DNA from: Tetragenococcus osmophilus
GTDB taxonomy: Bacteria > Bacillota > Bacilli > Lactobacillales > Enterococcaceae
Direction: 5' to 3'
DNA: 64,000 bases
NCBI RefSeq assembly: GCF_003795125.1
Contig: NZ_CP027783.1
Coordinates: 1,674,001 to 1,738,000, forward strand
Below the pieces are notes generated by a model. That model had not been told where the DNA came from and did not search any database. It saw only the letters and a program-made list of their open reading frames with translations. This document shows positions 55,654 through 64,000 of the stretch, in pieces. Numbering within the stretch: position 1 is the first letter of the stretch; every line of letters begins with the position of its first letter. Position numbers and translations under genes: made by a program.

Positions 55654-56382
55654 ATGAAAATACTTTTGCTATCAGATATTCATAGCAACGCTGTATCTTT
55701 ACGCAAAATTTTGGAAAGTGAAAAAGATGCAGATAAGGTCCTGTGTGCAGGAGATCATGTGGATTATGGACTTTATCCTAAAGAAGTACTAGAAATGGTT
55801 AAAGATTATAATATTACAAGCGTTAGAGGAAACCACGACGATCATATGATCAAAACTTGGGAGCAAATAGAACAAGGTGTGGAACAGGACGAATTTAAAT
55901 GGATTCATCATAACGCGGATATTTTAAATAAAGAAGATATTGATTATTTAAAAGCACTGCCTAAAACAATTTCATTTGATTTAGGCAATACAGGGTATGT
56001 ACTTCAACACCAGTGGAAAGAAAACTCATATGAAACTATTCAGAGTGAGTATCATTTTGATCAGTTTTGGGATGAACACTATGCTGGCGCCTTACAAGGT
56101 GATTTTGAGAAAAGAATTATTTTTGGTCACACTCATAGACAAGGAATACATTATGTAGCTAATGGTAAATTGTGGTTGAATCCAGGGAGTATCTCTTATA
56201 GAAGACCAGACGATCCTACTAAAGATGCTCATTACATGATATTAGAAGATGGAAATATTGTATTTAAACAAGTGCCTTACGAGAAGGCTGAATTAATGAA
56301 TGAAGTGAACAAATGGCAAGGAATAATTAAACAAAAAGATATGGATGTCGCTTTGTTCTTCTTTGGTGAAGATGAGAGTTAG
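55654..56382 (+). CDS. Calcineurin-like metallophosphoesterase, YfcE type
   Basis: A 242-residue phosphoesterase with metal ligands in LLSDIHSN, CAGDHVDYG, RGNHDDH and FGHTHRQG; the NPGSISYRRP segment near the C-terminus is typical of the YfcE/MJ0936 group. It should hydrolyse phosphodiesters in the cytoplasm; the natural substrate is unknown. It is monocistronic, following the PTS gene and ending with a terminator before the IS element. Confidence 0.88.
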   Translation: MKILLLSDIHSNAVSLRKILESEKDADKVLCAGDHVDYGLYPKEVLEMVKDYNITSVRGNHDDHMIKTWEQIEQGVEQDEFKWIHHNADILNKEDIDYLKALPKTISFDLGNTGYVLQHQWKENSYETIQSEYHFDQFWDEHYAGALQGDFEKRIIFGHTHRQGIHYVANGKLWLNPGSISYRRPDDPTKDAHYMILEDGNIVFKQVPYEKAELMNEVNKWQGIIKQKDMDVALFFFGEDES

Positions 56383-56438: not shown

Positions 56439-56630
56439 TTAAACGAGCAAAAAGATCATTCATAGAAACTTGAAAGTCATTCGGAATTATTTGATTTTTA
56501 TTTACATTTTGATCTTGAACTATTTATCTAAGTGTAAAATTTATTGAGGTTCCCTCTAGACGAATAAAAAAGAAACCGTTACTCTATTCATTGGGCTGTG
56601 ACAGGCACTAATGAACAAAGGCGGTTTCTT

Positions 56631-58049
56631 ATGGAATCTATTGTAACAGATTTAGTGGAAGTAATGAAGAAGGAAACGAATTTTTTAGCAAGAGAAAGAG
56701 CTATGATGATCTTTTTTACGCAATTGATCACGACAATTACCCAACTAGCGTTTCAAACGCTTGATGAAGAAATTTGTGCGCAATGTAAGAAAGAAGGCTT
56801 TCGCGTCGATCGTAAAAGCGAGAGAACCATCACCTTTTTGTTTGGGACCGTGACCTATGTTCGTCGACGAATGAAAAATCAAGCCAATGACATTCGTTAC
56901 CCCTTAGATGAATTTCTAGGGATTCGAAAAGGGCTTCGTTATAGTTCGCTAGTCCTGCGAAACGTCTCTCAATTAGGCAGTATCATGGTTTATCGTCATG
57001 TTTCTCAAGCGATTGACTGTTTAACTTCTTGGCAGATGAGTCATCAAAATGTGCAACAGTTGGTGGTTAAAACCGGTGAACTGGTCCAGACACGAAGCAC
57101 GCATGAAAGTCGTTATGACGGCGTGATCATCAAGAAAAAAGTGCCTTATTTATATTTGGAAGGAGACGGCGCAAAGATTGGCGGACAGAAGAAACAATCT
57201 CTTGAAGTCCATCGTTTTCAAGTATGTGAAGGCAGCCAGAAAGTAGGGAATCGCTCGGAAATGATCGCCCCGCACTTTGTGAGTCATCTGAATCGGCAAA
57301 AAGCATACAAAGAAATGATGGCCTATCTTCAAGCCTATTATGATTTAAGTCATACCGTTGTCATTTCCAATAGTGACGGCGGTTCAGGCTATGAAAAAGC
57401 CGTGTTTGATGAACTGGCTTTAGGTTGTTTGCGTCATGAACACTTCCGTGATCGATACCATGTCCATCGTAAAATCAAAGAACGAATGCCTTTTGTTCCC
57501 CAACTCCAACATCGTATGATACGAGCGATTGAACATTATGATTGGCAAGAGGTCCAGCTTGTTTTAGATACCTCGGAAAGCTTGATTGAAGAAAAGGAAG
57601 CCGAGGCTTCAGAACATTTACGTTTACTGCATCACTATCTTCAAAGAAATTGGCCTTATTTAAAATCATTGAAAGCACGAGAAATCAGAGATCCCCAAGC
57701 ATGTATTGGCACGATCGAAAGTACCCATCGAAAAATCACCTATCGCATGAAGCGCCAAGGTCGTTTATGGACAAAAACCGGTGCCCAAGCCATGATTCGT
57801 GTCATTGATAGTTTACGGAATCAAGAATTTGAAGGATGGTTGAATCAATACGAAGCCCTTCCGGACGACGTGGTCGCTCAAGAAAAGCGTTGGCAAGCTA
57901 TGAAACGTTGGGTACAGAAAAAAACTAACTTTCAAGCTCATGAAGGTGCGTTTAAAGGGCAAATGGGCGAAGGAAAAGCGAAAAGTGCACCTTTAGGCCA
58001 ATTCGCCAAAGGACTAAATCAATTAATAATGACCCCGAATTATCTCTAA
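56631..58049 (+). CDS. ISLre2-family (UPF0236) transposase
   Basis: A 472-residue transposase from ATG 56631, which follows AAAGGCGG; an in-frame GTG at 56598 is further upstream. It contains the UPF0236 segments FLFGTVTYVRRRMKN, YLEGDGAKIGGQKK and the YHVHRKI stretch, with acidic residues (EGDGA, SNSDGGSGYEKA) that could be catalytic. The frame is intact, ending MTPNYL, with a strong palindrome over the stop. Confidence 0.92.
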   Translation: MESIVTDLVEVMKKETNFLARERAMMIFFTQLITTITQLAFQTLDEEICAQCKKEGFRVDRKSERTITFLFGTVTYVRRRMKNQANDIRYPLDEFLGIRKGLRYSSLVLRNVSQLGSIMVYRHVSQAIDCLTSWQMSHQNVQQLVVKTGELVQTRSTHESRYDGVIIKKKVPYLYLEGDGAKIGGQKKQSLEVHRFQVCEGSQKVGNRSEMIAPHFVSHLNRQKAYKEMMAYLQAYYDLSHTVVISNSDGGSGYEKAVFDELALGCLRHEHFRDRYHVHRKIKERMPFVPQLQHRMIRAIEHYDWQEVQLVLDTSESLIEEKEAEASEHLRLLHHYLQRNWPYLKSLKAREIRDPQACIGTIESTHRKITYRMKRQGRLWTKTGAQAMIRVIDSLRNQEFEGWLNQYEALPDDVVAQEKRWQAMKRWVQKKTNFQAHEGAFKGQMGEGKAKSAPLGQFAKGLNQLIMTPNYL

Positions 58050-58073: not shown

Positions 58074-58260
58074 GATGAGGGCGAACCGAACGAAAGTGAG
58101 GTTGAAAAATAACTTCGTGTCTGCCCAAAAGACGGTTTTTTTATTCAACCTCAATAAACTTGACACATACACTATTTATAACTATCTTTCGTGCGTTGAT
58201 AACATTTGGTATAATACTACTAATATTTTATTTTTTAAAATTTAGTTAGGAGGAGGCTAT

Positions 58261-60018
58261 TTGGAAAGTTTACCTTCACCAGTAGTTTATGAGGTTGGCT
58301 ATTCCGACCATTCTTTTGAGGAAATATCTGACACTTTACCTAAAGAGAAAGCGAAGTACATATTAAATTATCCTACAGTTTATTTGATTAATGACACAAC
58401 AAAACAAGGGAAATTTTCTATATATATAGGAGAATCAACTGATATTAAGCGAAGAACAGATGAACATTTGCATGGTGATATACAGAAAAATAATAATTGG
58501 AAAAATTTTGCGAGTTCTGAAACATCTAAGATGTTCGTTATCGGGCATAGTCATTTTAATAAGTCACTTACATTAGATATCGAAAATAAATTGATGCAAT
58601 ACATGACGAGTGTTGATGCAGTAAGGTATATTTTTAATCGTCGTTTGAATCAACAAAATGAATATTACACATCAGATGAGCTAGATGATATTTTCTCAAA
58701 AATATGGCAGAAACTTCATCGAAAGAATAAAACATTATTTCCAGCAGAAAGTATTATTCGAGATTCAGCCCTTTTTAAGGCTTCGCCATTTAATAAATTA
58801 AAAGAAGAACAATTAGAAGCTAAAGATAAAATCTTAATGAAAATTGAGGAAGCATTGAATCGTGATAAAATGGGACAATTGATTTTAGTAGAAGGAGAAG
58901 CAGGGACTGGGAAAACAGTATTGATGAGTAGCTTATTTTACGAACTTAAGCAAATTTCAGGCGAGGAAGAAAGTAACGTCTTGTTAAACCAAATCTCTTG
59001 TCATTTGTTAGTCAATCATAAAGAGCAATTAAAAGTTTATCAACAGATTGCTAAAAAGCTTGGTTTAATAGAAAAGAAAAAACAATCGGATATTGTTTCG
59101 AATCCTACCTCGTTTATTAATAATCATGATCCAGAAGAAAAGGTAGACGTAGTTATAGTTGATGAAGCTCATCTGCTTTGGACGCAAGGAAAACAATCTT
59201 ACCAAGGAAAAAATCAACTAGAAGATATTTTAGCTAGGGCTCGCGTTGTTGTTGCTGTTTTTGATAGAAATCAAATACTTTCTAGGGAACAATACTGGGA
59301 AGAAAAACAGCTTTTGCAAATGGTCCATGAAGCGAATTTAAAAGATAACTATATTGAATTACAGAACCAACTAAGAATAAATGCTAACCAACAAACAATT
59401 AATTGGATAAGAGAAATAATTGATAAGCAAGAAGTTCAAAATATCCCTAAAGATAATAATTATGATTTGAAAGTTTTTAATACAGTTGAAAAAATGTATG
59501 AAGCTATCAAAGAAAAAGCTAAAAATGAAGATTATGGTATTTCTAGAATTTTAGCTACATTTGATTGGGAGTATAATGATAATAACAGACCTAAGGATGA
59601 AGACTATTGGAGTGTTAAAATTGGCAATTGGTCTTTACCATGGAACTTACAGTTAAAACCGTATAATCCTCGAGAAATAAAAAGTAAAGATTTGTCTTGG
59701 GCAGAACAAGCACAGACAATCAATGAAGTCGGATCGACGTTTACTATCCAAGGTTTTGATTTGAATTATGCCGCAGTTATTATTGGGCCTTCAGTCCAAT
59801 ATAGAAACGGTCAAATTGTATTTGACAAAAGTGCGAGTAAAAATAATAAAGCTGTATACCGACGTAAAGTAAATAATGAGATGAGAGATGTATCAAAGTC
59901 ATTATTAAATAATGAATTAAACGTCTTGTTAACTCGTGGTGTTAATGGGTTATATATCTATGCTGTAGATCCAGAACTTCAAGAAGCTTTGATAAAAGCA
60001 CAAAAAGGAGAGCTTTAA
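58261..60018 (+). CDS. GIY-YIG nuclease fused to DUF2075 P-loop ATPase/helicase-like domain
   Basis: A 585-residue protein. Residues about 38-120 form a GIY-YIG-like domain (TVYLIND, IYIGESTDIKRRTDEH, and a later Glu in DIENKLMQ). From residue 190 there is a DUF2075/COG3410 domain: Walker A GEAGTGKT (212-219), DEAH (301-304), and SF1-like motifs TIQGFDLNYAAVIIGP and LNVLLTRGVNGLYIY. The start is TTG 58261 behind TTAGGAGGAGG. It is coupled to a MazG-like gene one base later. A nuclease-ATPase acting on foreign or damaged nucleic acid is inferred. Confidence 0.88.
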   Translation: MESLPSPVVYEVGYSDHSFEEISDTLPKEKAKYILNYPTVYLINDTTKQGKFSIYIGESTDIKRRTDEHLHGDIQKNNNWKNFASSETSKMFVIGHSHFNKSLTLDIENKLMQYMTSVDAVRYIFNRRLNQQNEYYTSDELDDIFSKIWQKLHRKNKTLFPAESIIRDSALFKASPFNKLKEEQLEAKDKILMKIEEALNRDKMGQLILVEGEAGTGKTVLMSSLFYELKQISGEEESNVLLNQISCHLLVNHKEQLKVYQQIAKKLGLIEKKKQSDIVSNPTSFINNHDPEEKVDVVIVDEAHLLWTQGKQSYQGKNQLEDILARARVVVAVFDRNQILSREQYWEEKQLLQMVHEANLKDNYIELQNQLRINANQQTINWIREIIDKQEVQNIPKDNNYDLKVFNTVEKMYEAIKEKAKNEDYGISRILATFDWEYNDNNRPKDEDYWSVKIGNWSLPWNLQLKPYNPREIKSKDLSWAEQAQTINEVGSTFTIQGFDLNYAAVIIGPSVQYRNGQIVFDKSASKNNKAVYRRKVNNEMRDVSKSLLNNELNVLLTRGVNGLYIYAVDPELQEALIKAQKGEL

Positions 60019-60019
60019 A

Positions 60020-60358
60020 ATGTCTAGTAATGAAAGCATAATGAGCAAAATTAATCAATTTCGTGATGATCGTAATTGGCGTCAATTTCATAATGAAAAA
60101 GATTTGGCAATTTCAATTTCGATAGAAGCTTCAGAACTATTGGAACTTTTTCAATGGAAATCATCCACTGAGGTAAAAGATAAAAAATTAAGTAGGATAA
60201 AAGAGGAGTTAGCCGATGTCTTGATCTATTCTTATATGATGGCGGACAATTTAGACTTAGATGTTGAAGAGATTATTAGTGAAAAATTGAAATTAAACGA
60301 GAAAAAATACCCAGTAGACAAAGCTAAAAATAAAAATGATAAATATACAGAGTTATAA
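60020..60358 (+). CDS. MazG-like nucleotide pyrophosphohydrolase
   Basis: A 112-residue all-alpha NTP pyrophosphatase. The metal-binding E-x2-E ... E-x2-D pattern appears in ISIEASELLELFQW and IKEELADVLIYSYMMAD. By family it hydrolyses NTP or dNTP to NMP and pyrophosphate. It begins one base after the GIY-YIG/DUF2075 gene and its ribosome site lies in that gene, so the two proteins are made together, which points to a shared task. Confidence 0.88.
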   Translation: MSSNESIMSKINQFRDDRNWRQFHNEKDLAISISIEASELLELFQWKSSTEVKDKKLSRIKEELADVLIYSYMMADNLDLDVEEIISEKLKLNEKKYPVDKAKNKNDKYTEL

Positions 60359-60436: not shown

Positions 60437-61120
60437 ATGGATAATTTATTTATGGTGTTATTGTTGGTCAGCTTTATTTGTTTGTTATTAGGTTGCTACC
60501 GTTTTGTAAGGAAAGTTATAAAAAAAGATGGGAGCTACCCTAATAATAAGCGGTTACTTATTTGTTCTTTGTCGGATGGTGTTATCGCCTTCATTGGAGT
60601 AGGAATTACTGCTCCTGAGGAAATAGAAACTAGTTCTGTTGAAAAAACGGCAGAAACTACGTCAATAAGTACGCAGTCCTCTTCAGAAATACAGGGTTCA
60701 AAAGAGAAACAGGAAGAGGAAGAAGAAAAACAAAAGAAGCTAGCTGAAGAGAAGAAGGAGAAAGAGGAGGAAGAGAAGCAAAAGAAGTTAGCTGAGGAGA
60801 AAAAGGAAAAAGAGGAAGAAGAGAAGCAAAAGGAACTAGCTGAAGAGAAGAAAGAAAAAGAAGAGAGAGAAAAGCAAGAAAAATTAGCTAAGGAAGAACA
60901 AAGAAAGGCAGAAGAAGAAAGAGAACAAGCAGAAGCACAACAGCGTGAAGATGAGCAACTTCAACAATCTCAACAGCAGGATGATGTTGGTGAGATGGTT
61001 TATGTGACTCCAACTGGAGAAAAGTACCATTCCCATCCTCATGGTAACGGTGACTTTTCTCAAACCACACTAGAAAATGCGCAAGCAATGGGATTAGAAC
61101 CATGCAAGGTTTGTCATTAA
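60437..61120 (+). CDS. Membrane-anchored coiled-coil protein with C-terminal His/Cys motif
   Basis: A 227-residue protein with two hydrophobic segments (about 4-22 and 42-60). A Ser/Thr linker follows, then a long Lys/Glu coiled coil made of 16-residue repeats (EEEKQKKLAEEKKEKE; near-identical 48-bp units at 60719, 60767 and 60815). The C-terminus YVTPTGEKYHSHPHG...LEPCKVCH resembles a small metal-binding module (PTG-x2-YH ... C-x2-CH) found at ends of Firmicute secreted proteins. Function unknown. Confidence 0.75.
   Translation: MDNLFMVLLLVSFICLLLGCYRFVRKVIKKDGSYPNNKRLLICSLSDGVIAFIGVGITAPEEIETSSVEKTAETTSISTQSSSEIQGSKEKQEEEEEKQKKLAEEKKEKEEEEKQKKLAEEKKEKEEEEKQKELAEEKKEKEEREKQEKLAKEEQRKAEEEREQAEAQQREDEQLQQSQQQDDVGEMVYVTPTGEKYHSHPHGNGDFSQTTLENAQAMGLEPCKVCH
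60719..60862 (+). repeat. Three tandem 48-bp coding repeats
   Basis: Units at 60719-60766, 60767-60814 and 60815-60862 each encode 16 residues of Lys/Glu coiled coil; a partial fourth follows. The number may vary between strains by slippage. Confidence 0.8.
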
Positions 61121-61182
61121 ATGTAACTAAACAAGAATTTTACTTAATAGTAATTATGAAGAATAGAGGAAGGACATTTACA

Positions 61183-61635
61183 ATGAAAAAGTTTACTAAA
61201 GGGTTAATGTTGGGCATACTATCTTTAGCAGTTTTAGCTGGATGTAGCTCAAATGTTTCAGAAGATGATTTGAAGGCTAATGATTGGACGATTGAACCAG
61301 AAGAGGAAGATGTACCTAATATGATTGCTTCTTTTTCTGATCACGTAATGACAGTAAATGTTGATGTAGACAGCATAGAATCGACTGCTACTGATGAGTG
61401 GGAACAAATGGGTGAAGATTTTGCTAAAGAGCTAGCTAGTGAAATGGACTTTAAATTAGAATATACGTTAGAGGGAGATCAGGTTACACTACAAGATACA
61501 GAAAATGAGGACGAAAGTAACACATTTGAAGTCTCTGAGGAAGATGATAATATTACTTTTACACCTAGTGAAGATGAGTCAGATGATGATATAGAAACTA
61601 TAGTATTGGAACCTAGGGAAAGTGAAGAGGATTAG
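61183..61635 (+). CDS. Acidic putative lipoprotein
   Basis: A 150-residue protein from ATG 61183 (GAGGAAGGAC upstream). The signal peptide has a lipobox LAGC. The mature part is very acidic and looks beta-rich, resembling small Firmicute lipoproteins of unknown function (DUF4828/DUF5640-like folds are a guess). An upstream in-frame ATG at 61102 lacks a signal-peptide character. It is on the same strand as the coiled-coil gene and may share its transcript. Confidence 0.75.
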   Translation: MKKFTKGLMLGILSLAVLAGCSSNVSEDDLKANDWTIEPEEEDVPNMIASFSDHVMTVNVDVDSIESTATDEWEQMGEDFAKELASEMDFKLEYTLEGDQVTLQDTENEDESNTFEVSEEDDNITFTPSEDESDDDIETIVLEPRESEED

Positions 61636-61673: not shown

Positions 61674-63659
61674 TTATACTGTTTCTAATATCGAATAAAC
61701 ATCCTCCCTGGACTCAGCTTCTAACAATTTGTTTTTAAATTCTTCTTTCATTAATTGGCGTGATAATAGTTGTAAAATTTTCAAGTGTGTATCCCCCTTA
61801 TGTTTAGCAGGAACTAAAATTATAAATACAATATTAACAAGTTCGCCATCTAGGCTGTTCCACTCTATACCTGTGTCTGATTTTCCAAAAACAACAATAG
61901 GAACACTTATACCATCAGATTTTCCGTGAGGAATAGCTATACCTTCACCCATACCAGTTGTTCCTTCTTTTTCACGATCTAGCACATCATTCACTAGTTG
62001 TTGCTTATCGGTTATAAAAGGTTGTATAGCATCTAAATTTATCAGTTCTTTAATTGTATCTTCTTTCGTACTTGATTCAATATTCATGTGAATATATTCT
62101 GGCTGTATTAAATCTGTTAATTGATAGGATTTATCTTTTTGGTTTTCAGAAATACTTTTTTCTTCTGGAGTTTCAGTTTTGTCATGAGTAGTTGAAGGTT
62201 CATTATTACTAGAGAAGCTCCCCTCGTTGTTAGCTGCAACAGCAACGGTTTCCTGGAGGTTAACGTCTTTTTTCAAGATTCTTAACATTAGCAAAGAAGC
62301 TAAGACACCAAGGATTGTACCAACAGTAAACATCAAAACTCCATCTATAGCTCCTAGAACTGCCACGATTGGTCCGCCATGAGCTACAGTGTCTCCCACA
62401 CCGCTTAGAGCAGCTACAATAGCTCCTACAACTGAGCCTACTATTGTGCTTGGAATTACACGTATAGGGTCTTTTGCAGCAAATGGGATAGCTCCTTCAG
62501 TCAACCCAAAGAGCCCCATCGCAATAGACGCTTTAGCAGTATCAACATCTTCTCTTTGAAATTTGTTCTTCATGATATATGGGGCGACACCTAGAGCAAG
62601 TGGTGGTACACAGACTGCGACAGCAATCATGCCCATAACTCCATAAGAACCTTCACCAATTAAACCGACGCCGAATAAAAATGCTACTTTATTGAATGGG
62701 CCGCCCATATCAACAGCAATCATTGTTCCTACTATAATAGCTAGAACAATTGAGCTTGTTCCCTGGAGAGACTCAAGCCAGTTTGTTAATCCGGTAAATA
62801 GGCTAGCTACTGGCGTACCGATAATATATATAAAAATCAAGCCAACAATAAGGGTTGATATAATCGGAATAAAGATAATAGGCATAACTGATTGGACTGC
62901 TTTAGGAACAGGTATTTTTTTAATAGCTAGCGCAATATAACCAGCTAATAAACCAGCAATTATGCCGCCAAGAAATCCAGTATCACCTTCGCCAGCATAA
63001 AAGTCTTCGCTTGAAGCGATCAAACCACCAATCATACCTGGGACTAATCCGGGTCTATCAGCAATACTATAGGCCATATAAGCTGCTAAAATTGGTACCA
63101 TAAAATCCATAGCAGCTTCGCCAATATTATTAATAGAATCCCAAATAGTTCCTTCCTCGATGACCAGTCCGCCATCTGTTGGGACACCACCAATTGTTAA
63201 AGCAATAGCGATCAATAAACCGCCTGTCACAACAAATGGAACCATAAAAGAAACCCCATTCATAAGCGCTTGATAAATTGGGTTTTTAGTCTCTCCGCTT
63301 GGTTTATTTCCTTCAGTTTGTTTACTCTCATAACTTGTAGATCGTGTTGTTCCTTGGTGTTCTAAGATTTATTGAATCAATTCTTTGGGTCTCTGTATTC
63401 CTTTTTGAACACCTACTTCAACGATTTGGATATTAGAGAAACGTTCTTTCGAAATTTCCGTATCGGCTGCTATGATCAAACCTTCAGCTTCTTGAATATC
63501 TTCATCAGTTAAAGGGTTCTCCACTCCGATCGAACCATGTGTTTCAACTTTAATTTCAACGTCCATTGCTTCAGCAGCTTGCTCTAAATTTTCAGCAGCC
63601 ATATAAGTATGGGCAACTCCAACTGCACATGAAGTAATAGCTAATACTTTTTGCGCCAT
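61674..63659 (-). pseudogene. Fructose-family PTS EIIBCA split by one in-frame TAA
   Basis: From ATG 63659 (AAAGGAGATC upstream) runs an EIIB domain with phospho-cysteine TSCAVGVAHTYMAAE. TAA at 63371-63369 ends it after 96 residues. The same frame then continues for 35 codons with no ATG, GTG or TTG, into EIIC (SFMVPFVVTGGLL..., VDMGGPFNKVAF) and a C-terminal EIIA with phospho-histidine in GEGIAIPHGKS. The natural protein would be one chain of about 661 residues. EIIC-EIIA (61674-63263) could only start inside the first EIIC helix. The sugar is fructose or mannosyl-glycerate-like. Confidence 0.85.
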
Positions 63660-63842: not shown

Positions 63843-64000
63843 TTAGAAGTATGTGTCAAGTTTATTGAGGTTGAATAAAAAAACCGTCTTTTGGGACAGA
63901 CACGAAGTTATTTTCAACCTCACTTTCGTTCGGTTTGCCCTCATTATTAATTGGTTTAATCCTTTGGCGAATTGGCCTAAAGGGGCACTTTTCGCTTTTC
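63843..64000 (-). CDS. Transposase of the second IS copy, 3' end, with altered C-terminus
   Basis: The frame reads KAKSAPLGQFAKGLNQLIM as in the first copy. It then continues, because of the 46-base deletion, through RANRTKVRLKITSCLSQKT to a TAA at 63845-63843, just outside the element. The last six residues (TPNYL region) are replaced by about 32 new ones. Activity is uncertain. Confidence 0.75.
   Translation of the reverse strand, partial: KAKSAPLGQFAKGLNQLIMRANRTKVRLKITSCLSQKTVFLFNLNKLDTYF
63849..64000 (-). mobile_element. Second ISLre2-family copy, inverse orientation, cut by window edge
   Basis: The end GTATGTGTCAAGTTTATTGAGGTT (63849-63872) is identical to the right inverted repeat of the first copy. 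The 3' part of the transposase gene follows. It lacks 46 bases covering the normal stop codon and palindrome, and has small differences elsewhere. GTTTTAGAA (63840-63848) would be one half of its target duplication. Confidence 0.92.

Follow-up and report, generated by a model that had tools for sequence, protein, structure and literature searches.

SauUSI acts on DNA that contains 5-methylcytosine (m5C) or 5-hydroxymethylcytosine (hm5C), and the same source describes the MspJI family, in which it lists AspBHI, as doing likewise (PMC3874153). GIY-YIG nuclease domains are described in the anti-phage proteins PD-T4-3 and PD-lambda-1 (PMC10952713), and section 8 of the DefensePredictor paper counts MazG-type and other nucleotide-modifying domains among predicted, unvalidated parts of defence systems (PMC13092281). 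Here we describe a two-gene locus of Tetragenococcus osmophilus in which a GIY-YIG nuclease-like domain is fused to a Schlafen-type helicase (gene A) and is followed by a small enzyme predicted to act on deoxycytidine triphosphate (dCTP; gene B). The locus lies in a stretch of 64,000 nucleotides, hereafter the window (G000:C1:1674001-1738000), within a genome of 2.38 Mb on three contigs. We conclude that the two genes form a conserved unit, and that this unit is probably an undescribed anti-virus system.

Two genes that form a conserved unit

A sequence-only reading of the window had proposed a pair of open reading frames (ORFs) one base apart as a defence module. Both ORFs are present as it described them, and exactly one base separates the stop codon of gene A from the ATG of gene B. 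The start that it gave for gene A, 58171, is 90 bases too early: it is in frame, but a stop codon intervenes before the TTG start, which is preceded by an AGGAGG-type ribosome site. The two genes and the domains of gene A are as follows.

58261..60018, + strand: gene A, GIY-YIG nuclease fused to a Schlafen-group-3 (SLFN-g3; DUF2075) superfamily 1 (SF1) helicase; 585 amino acids (aa), TTG start
58375..58593, + strand: GIY-YIG domain, residues 39-111; invariant Y41, Y55, G57, R65, H69, and E108, with N126 just past the domain
58876..59970, + strand: SLFN-g3 helicase domain, residues 206-570; Walker A residues G212, G215, G217, K218, and T219; D301, E302, and H304; R559
60020..60358, + strand: gene B, DCTPP1-type all-alpha nucleoside triphosphate (NTP) pyrophosphatase by sequence and predicted fold; 112 aa; invariant E36, E39, E63, D66, W20, and H24

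By its sequence, the N-terminus of gene A is a member of the GIY-YIG nuclease superfamily, and nuclease activity is predicted for it. Pfam places GIY-YIG (PF01541) at residues 39-111 with 23.8 bits, just over the cut-off of 22.6, and the first GIY-YIG motif carries Thr in place of Gly. The sequence-only reading had held that a defence role would be unlikely if the catalytic residues of this domain were not conserved. In an alignment of the window's gene A with its counterparts from 66 of 81 loci (67 rows), the catalytic-type set (Y41, Y55, G57, R65, H69, E108, and N126) is invariant, so that every Tyr, Arg, His, Glu, and Asn position in question is retained; we take the two Tyr, the Arg, the Glu, and the Asn to have catalytic roles. 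A search with the predicted structure returned rows that cover residues 128-583, which scarcely sample the N-terminal domain, so that the lack of a GIY-YIG row among them counts neither for nor against this assignment.

The remainder of the protein matches PF09848 ('DUF2075'; Schlafen group 3) at residues 206-570 with E 1.6e-98, a helicase domain of the Schlafen group III type. We nevertheless rejected gene A as a true Schlafen, because its N-terminus matches GIY-YIG and no Schlafen core (AlbA_2-type) nuclease domain was found among its Pfam matches to E 1 (best 25 of 26). Among the best 80 of 566 outside matches, the closest are from a Tetragenococcus metagenome-assembled genome (83% identity), 'Candidatus Tetragenococcus pullicola' (67%), and T. 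solitarius (65%).

Gene B is, by sequence, predicted fold, and acidic residues, a dCTP pyrophosphatase of the DCTPP1 type, with this activity predicted. Although it matches the Pfam family PF12643 (MazG-like, E 7.3e-23), we set the generic MazG label aside because its nearest solved relatives are dCTP pyrophosphatases. Its best matches among Protein Data Bank (PDB) sequences are 4qgp (E 1.4e-32) and both 6sqw and 2a3q (E 9.3e-26), and Foldseek aligns the predicted fold to 4qgp and 6sqw with template modeling (TM) scores of 0.82 and 0.76, respectively. Solved relatives include the mouse dCTPase with 5-Me-dCMP and RS21-C6 with dm5CTP. The four acidic residues E36, E39, E63, and D66 are invariant in an alignment of the window's gene B with 47 of 67 adjacent B genes (48 rows).

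Adjacency of the two genes across genomes, which the sequence-only reading had proposed as a check, is borne out. We examined the best 80 of 566 genome loci matched by gene A, which represent closer relatives only; in 66 of them B is no more than two ORFs away from A. The two genes are on the same strand in 65 of these, 64 with a gap of at most 38 bp; B lies downstream of A in 46 and upstream in 19, and in a single locus it is upstream on the opposite strand. Purifying selection acts on the two genes: measured against three congeners, the ratio of nonsynonymous to synonymous substitution (dN/dS) is 0.06-0.09 for gene A and 0.05-0.07 for gene B, with dS in these comparisons exceeding 1 and in part saturated. 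Given the adjacency retained in most loci and these low ratios, the pair is more than a product of chance, and A and B constitute a real conserved unit.

The tree of gene A cuts across family and phylum lines, and in a quick phylogeny of 82 A proteins (L060 and L085, in which A is broken, were left out) the order of B relative to A switched at least five times, yet the two genes remained neighbours. Evolutionary distances of A and B are correlated, with a Mantel r of 0.60 over 70 pairs, 0.87 over the 21 pairs with B upstream, and 0.70 over the 49 with B downstream; shared host descent could also produce such a correlation.

We also counted the genes in 117 related genomes, a set that overlaps the 80 loci (L037 is G008, L038 is G004, and L039 is G003). 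Some relative of A is present in 39 of the 117 genomes, the T. osmophilus genome and helicase-only forms included. When loci are classed by the matched part of A, and weaker B matches, together with two second fragments of genes that had already been counted, are omitted, B is within 1 kb at 22 of 34 loci with GIY-YIG plus helicase and at none of six with the helicase only. Within the genus, A is found in five of nine genomes; a DCTPP1-like gene is present in all five and in none of the other four (best E 5.7e-5).

More divergent relatives show the same association in part. Among 358 genomes drawn from the phylum, 16 contain PF09848, at 17 places in all, and B is in the flanks of about 1.5 kb at eight of these, the window included. 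All four phage-collection records with a relative of A, namely one Microcystis phage and three gut scaffolds marked UNVERIFIED, have an adjoining relative of B, which occurs in 15 such records overall; two of the four lack a GIY-YIG match. By annotation, a haloarchaeal plasmid carries a 'nucleotide pyrophosphohydrolase' gene directly upstream of a DUF2075 gene, and among 12 annotated plasmid regions a gene of this type lies beside the DUF2075 gene in four and not in the other eight.

Ten of the A relatives were aligned over their N-termini. One does not have that part; the other nine (L190, L192, L193, L194, L195, L197, L198, L200, and L210) have the pattern E...R-D...ELKQW instead of GIY-YIG, which, from inspection of the alignment and not from a database match, reads as a PD-(D/E)XK-like nuclease. 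Because B is adjacent at six of these nine, the nuclease part seems to be exchangeable while the helicase and B persist. At L193:734-4638, two distinct SLFN-g3 helicase genes, one with a GIY-YIG part and one with a PD-(D/E)XK-like part, flank a single dCTPase-like gene. On a Hymenobacter plasmid (L215, 2184-6170), a DNA methyltransferase gene lies upstream of a tandem of two DUF2075-annotated genes.

A variable slot and its defence genes

In the window, the pair occupies a slot between two ORFs that also bound other genes in sister species. The features surrounding the pair are these.

55654..56382, + strand: left edge of the variable slot, a 242-aa ORF, a metallophosphatase by reading alone
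56598..58049, + strand: transposase ORF of the ISLre2 family, located after the left slot edge and before the pair; absent from the G003 and G006 alignments
58207..58256, + strand: start signals read from the sequence, TG-G-TATAAT (58207-58215) and AGGAGGAGG (58248-58256)
61102..61635, + strand: right edge of the variable slot, a small lipoprotein-like ORF by reading; conserved part from about 61183

Apart from the insertion sequence (IS), the gene order of this slot is identical in G006 and G003, and in G008 the pair lies beside the same downstream gene as in the window (ORF 61674-63263). In G001 and G005, 9 to 10 kb separate the slot edges, and the interval contains type I restriction-modification genes, which code for a methyltransferase (E 7.1e-172 and 3.3e-173), a restriction subunit (E 3.2e-170 and 1.8e-169), and specificity subunits. 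The left flank of G002 is 99.6% identical to that of the window over 3,738 bp and its right edge is 94.3% identical, with BrxA, BrxB, BrxC, PglX, and PglZ preceding the right edge. The two edges of G002 are on different contigs, and we infer from the right flank that bacteriophage exclusion (BREX) genes fill its slot. G007 has neither A nor either slot edge. The presence of restriction-modification or BREX genes in the equivalent position of sister species indicates that the Tetragenococcus slot holds different defence systems depending on the species, and that the A+B pair is one of these options.

A fixed site is also seen outside the genus. Seven of the 80 loci, all in Levilactobacillus, share one chromosomal position, where the flanking clusters are represented by an MgsA-type ATPase and a GH20-like protein; the gene is thus able to become established at a single site. 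The sequence-only reading had regarded a core position among housekeeping neighbours as grounds against a defence role. The Levilactobacillus loci and the single slot kept by the Tetragenococcus pair go some way toward this picture, but the sister species hold other defence systems in that slot.

To survey flanking genes protein by protein, we compared 16 chosen defence queries with the 1,116 ORFs of at least 100 aa in 1,347 kb of flank around the 80 loci. Fourteen ORFs matched, in eight loci: seven SauUSI-like proteins (one a contig-end fragment), six of the NUDIX partner of SauUSI, and one DUF2357 protein. A SauUSI-like type IV restriction gene is thus found in the flanks of seven of the 80 loci, and a rough estimate from the occurrence of its DUF3427 domain in 45 of the 117 genomes would predict about 0.2 by chance in this length of flank. 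Four of the 18 genomes with both A and a DUF3427 gene have the two within 10 kb. We also ran PADLOC on 150 neighbours sampled from 572 and on 150 control ORFs sampled from 207. At E 1e-20 the neighbours matched 110 families and the controls 12, a contrast that we set aside as a main argument because one HsdS protein alone matches 72 families and so inflates the counts; single matches among the neighbours include Cas3, Cas6b, BrxP, AbiEi, HEC-06, and others.

Genes that resemble those for enzymes of modified cytosine appear beside relatives of A and B in phage-collection records as well. In MT836681 (L192:2218-5405), a gut phage record marked UNVERIFIED, a gene whose product has an AspBHI_N domain (E 1e-67) and an Mrr_cat domain overlaps the end of the SLFN-g3 helicase gene by 4 bp; B flanks the helicase gene at its opposite side, in divergent orientation. 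In MT836409 a DUF3427 helicase gene adjoins B and A. In Paenibacillus and Priestia, a DUF3578 gene adjoins the A relatives; DUF3578 is tied to McrB-type enzymes.

The SauUSI-like genes themselves have a comparable small partner. In the 117 genomes, a NUDIX hydrolase lies within 4 kb of the DUF3427 helicase gene at 35 of 43 places (43 of 45 DUF3427 matches were used, the two weakest being left out). Conversely, of the 37 strong NUDIX matches (E no higher than 2e-22), 35 are beside DUF3427. The representative NUDIX protein, the PADLOC candidate PDC-S07, is related to PDB entries for MutT-type enzymes, some of them CTP pyrophosphohydrolases. That two unrelated nuclease-helicases are each accompanied by a small hydrolase plausibly acting on dCTP or modified dCTP suggests a common need.

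The IS element that the sequence-only reading placed beside the pair is there, as the ISLre2-family transposase gene upstream, but its picture of decaying accessory genes is not borne out: the neighbouring ORFs look full length by reading. Between the transposase gene and gene A, the sequence reads as a ribosome site and a TGGTATAAT box. A scan for consensus promoters gave no excess over shuffled sequences and did not list the TG-G-TATAAT box at 58207-58215. Downstream, the product of the ORF at 60437-61120 combines what looks like a membrane helix with a long Lys/Glu repeat and a C-terminal end rich in Cys and His; the ORF aligns in G006 and partly in G003, does not align in the restriction-modification or BREX versions of the slot, and may be a passenger of the pair. 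Near the end of the window, at 63849-63944, a short inverted copy matches the right-hand portion of the ISLre2 region (96.9% over 97 bp).

Possible functions of the pair

Some role in defence is, in our judgment, likely. It is argued for by the slot shared with type I restriction-modification and BREX genes, the patchy distribution (39 of 117 genomes; five of nine Tetragenococcus genomes), the association with SauUSI-like genes, and the pairing itself. To this extent the defence module proposed from the sequence stands; the abortive, nucleotide-depleting logic proposed along with it does not gain specific support. The pattern of a nuclease-helicase with a small hydrolase, shared by A+B and by SauUSI with its NUDIX partner, is the basis on which we would connect the pair to modified cytosine, a connection that we put forward tentatively, as slightly less than an even call. 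The SauUSI-like genes in seven of the 80 flanks, the AspBHI-like and DUF3578 genes beside relatives of A, and the solved relatives of B with 5-methylated ligands speak for it too. Under this explanation, the helicase of A would load on or move along invading DNA and the GIY-YIG domain would cut it. B would hydrolyse dCTP, most likely in a 5-modified form (5-methyl or 5-hydroxymethyl), to the monophosphate. Targeting by A of DNA with modified cytosine would be the most likely reason for the coupling of A with B, which would exclude modified dCTP, whether synthesised by the phage or salvaged from its cut DNA, from DNA synthesis, so that the host is protected and the phage is starved. The entire chain, in which A+B is a two-gene, restriction-like unit against invaders with modified-cytosine DNA and B clears dCTP or modified dCTP, is likewise a provisional proposal that could fail about as readily as it could hold, and somewhat more so.

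Several observations weigh against this proposal. Pfam recognizes no modified-base reader domain in gene A, and no DUF3427 gene was found in the T. osmophilus genome. Most of the 80 loci had no defence neighbour in the by-protein test (eight were positive), queries with HsdM, HsdS, HsdR, BREX, Cas10, and Cas6 matched none of the 1,116 flank ORFs, and the commonest Pfam families among the sampled neighbours (25 of 110 listed) are mostly metabolic. None of 215 control ORFs (240 kb) matched the defence queries; the rate seen in the flanks would predict about two to three matches, and this small control therefore proves little alone. No B was found in the flanks examined at 14 of the 80 loci, and among the 34 loci with GIY-YIG plus helicase, B is elsewhere in the genome in nine and nowhere in three. 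Strong free copies of B are present in 44 of 78 relatives without A, indicating that B-type enzymes also live alone and can have a housekeeping role.

Some of the same facts bear on other explanations. Gene A might sense infection and cut DNA as B drains dCTP and halts phage DNA synthesis, an abortive or replication-starving defence with no link to modified bases. Such a role would fit a predicted dCTP pyrophosphatase coupled to a nuclease-helicase, and MazG domains are among the nucleotide-modifying parts that DefensePredictor predicts, as yet unvalidated, for defence (PMC13092281, section 8). We think it improbable nonetheless: neither Pfam nor the predicted structure reveals a sensor or control domain in the 112-aa B, its free homologues are common chromosomal genes whose constant presence seems to be tolerated, and the recurrent neighbour of the pair is a modification-dependent restriction gene. 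A role in genome maintenance without any defence would instead join a UvrC/UvrD-like nuclease-helicase, repairing damaged DNA, to a sanitiser of damaged deoxynucleotides. A GIY-YIG domain and a UvrD-like helicase do resemble parts of excision repair, DCTPP1 and NUDIX enzymes are known sanitisers of the nucleotide pool, and the shared Levilactobacillus site adjoins an MgsA-type ATPase gene. A repair function is hard to reconcile with patchy presence even within the genus, with a gene A tree that crosses family and phylum lines, with carriage on plasmids and in phage-collection records, and with the restriction-modification or BREX genes that occupy the equivalent slot of sister species, and we hold it to be quite unlikely. 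Finally, the Schlafen-type helicase raises the prospect that the nuclease cuts tRNA or other RNA in infected cells, which we judge very unlikely.

Returning to a modified-cytosine function, the same shared pattern of nuclease-helicase and hydrolase also permits a bolder and rather doubtful view of how self might be distinguished from non-self without a methyltransferase or an antitoxin: the dedicated hydrolase would keep 5-modified cytosine out of host DNA by destroying modified dCTP. The unit has no methyltransferase, in that HsdM and PglX queries matched none of the 1,116 flank ORFs at the 80 loci, and single plasmids with A relatives have a methyltransferase gene nearby. The core would be the SLFN-g3 helicase with the DCTPP1-like dCTPase, served by interchangeable nucleases (GIY-YIG, PD-(D/E)XK, or AspBHI-like), and SauUSI with its NUDIX hydrolase would be a convergent case; we consider this formulation equally speculative. 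If the proposed function is correct, the pair would be a widespread, unnamed two-gene defence unit of Bacillota, some Actinomycetota, an archaeal plasmid (by annotation), and phage-collection records, in which the Schlafen-type helicase of human antiviral proteins is joined to an enzyme of the nucleotide pool. It would also offer a testable reason for the nucleotide sanitisers that accompany nuclease-helicases, SauUSI-like ones included, and would bear on the role of nucleotide-metabolism domains in defence regions.

Comparison with known systems

No named system fits gene A, and we rejected such an assignment because PADLOC, NCBIfam, and PHROGs gave no full-length identity. In PADLOC-DB 2.0.0, gene A has no full-length match to any system gene and gene B has no match up to E 1; partial matches of A are to PDC-S14 over residues 34-122 (E 3.8e-6) and to P-loop stretches. 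Within the open-licence PubMed Central (PMC) literature, a scope that excludes bioRxiv, we found no name or description of the A+B pair, no paper joining GIY-YIG with DUF2075, and none joining DUF2075 with MazG. The DefensePredictor set may include the pair.

Parts of the unit can be likened to several known proteins. PD-T4-3 and PD-lambda-1 resemble gene A in that a GIY-YIG nuclease domain serves in defence, a likeness at the level of the domain, and PADLOC, which has PD-T4 models, gives no such match to gene A. The Group III Schlafens SLFN11 and SLFN14 have the PF09848 helicase domain and its fold in common with gene A, which differs from them in its GIY-YIG domain, in having no Schlafen core nuclease that we could find, and in its separate dCTPase-like partner. 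Gene B shares sequence, predicted fold, and acidic residues with DCTPP1/RS21-C6, which is a stand-alone sanitiser, whereas gene B adjoins a nuclease-helicase gene. AspBHI, of the MspJI family, is brought close by one record (MT836681), where an AspBHI-like gene overlaps the SLFN-g3 helicase gene and B is adjacent; it is a separate gene there, and none was found beside the window's pair. A likeness in overall design is seen with SauUSI-type systems, which are found near A in seven of the 80 loci and, like A+B, combine a nuclease-helicase fusion with a small nucleotide hydrolase. The components are different throughout: SauUSI-type systems employ a PLD nuclease, a superfamily 2 (SF2) helicase with DUF3427, and a NUDIX hydrolase, whereas A+B has a GIY-YIG domain, an SF1 helicase, and a DCTPP1-like enzyme.
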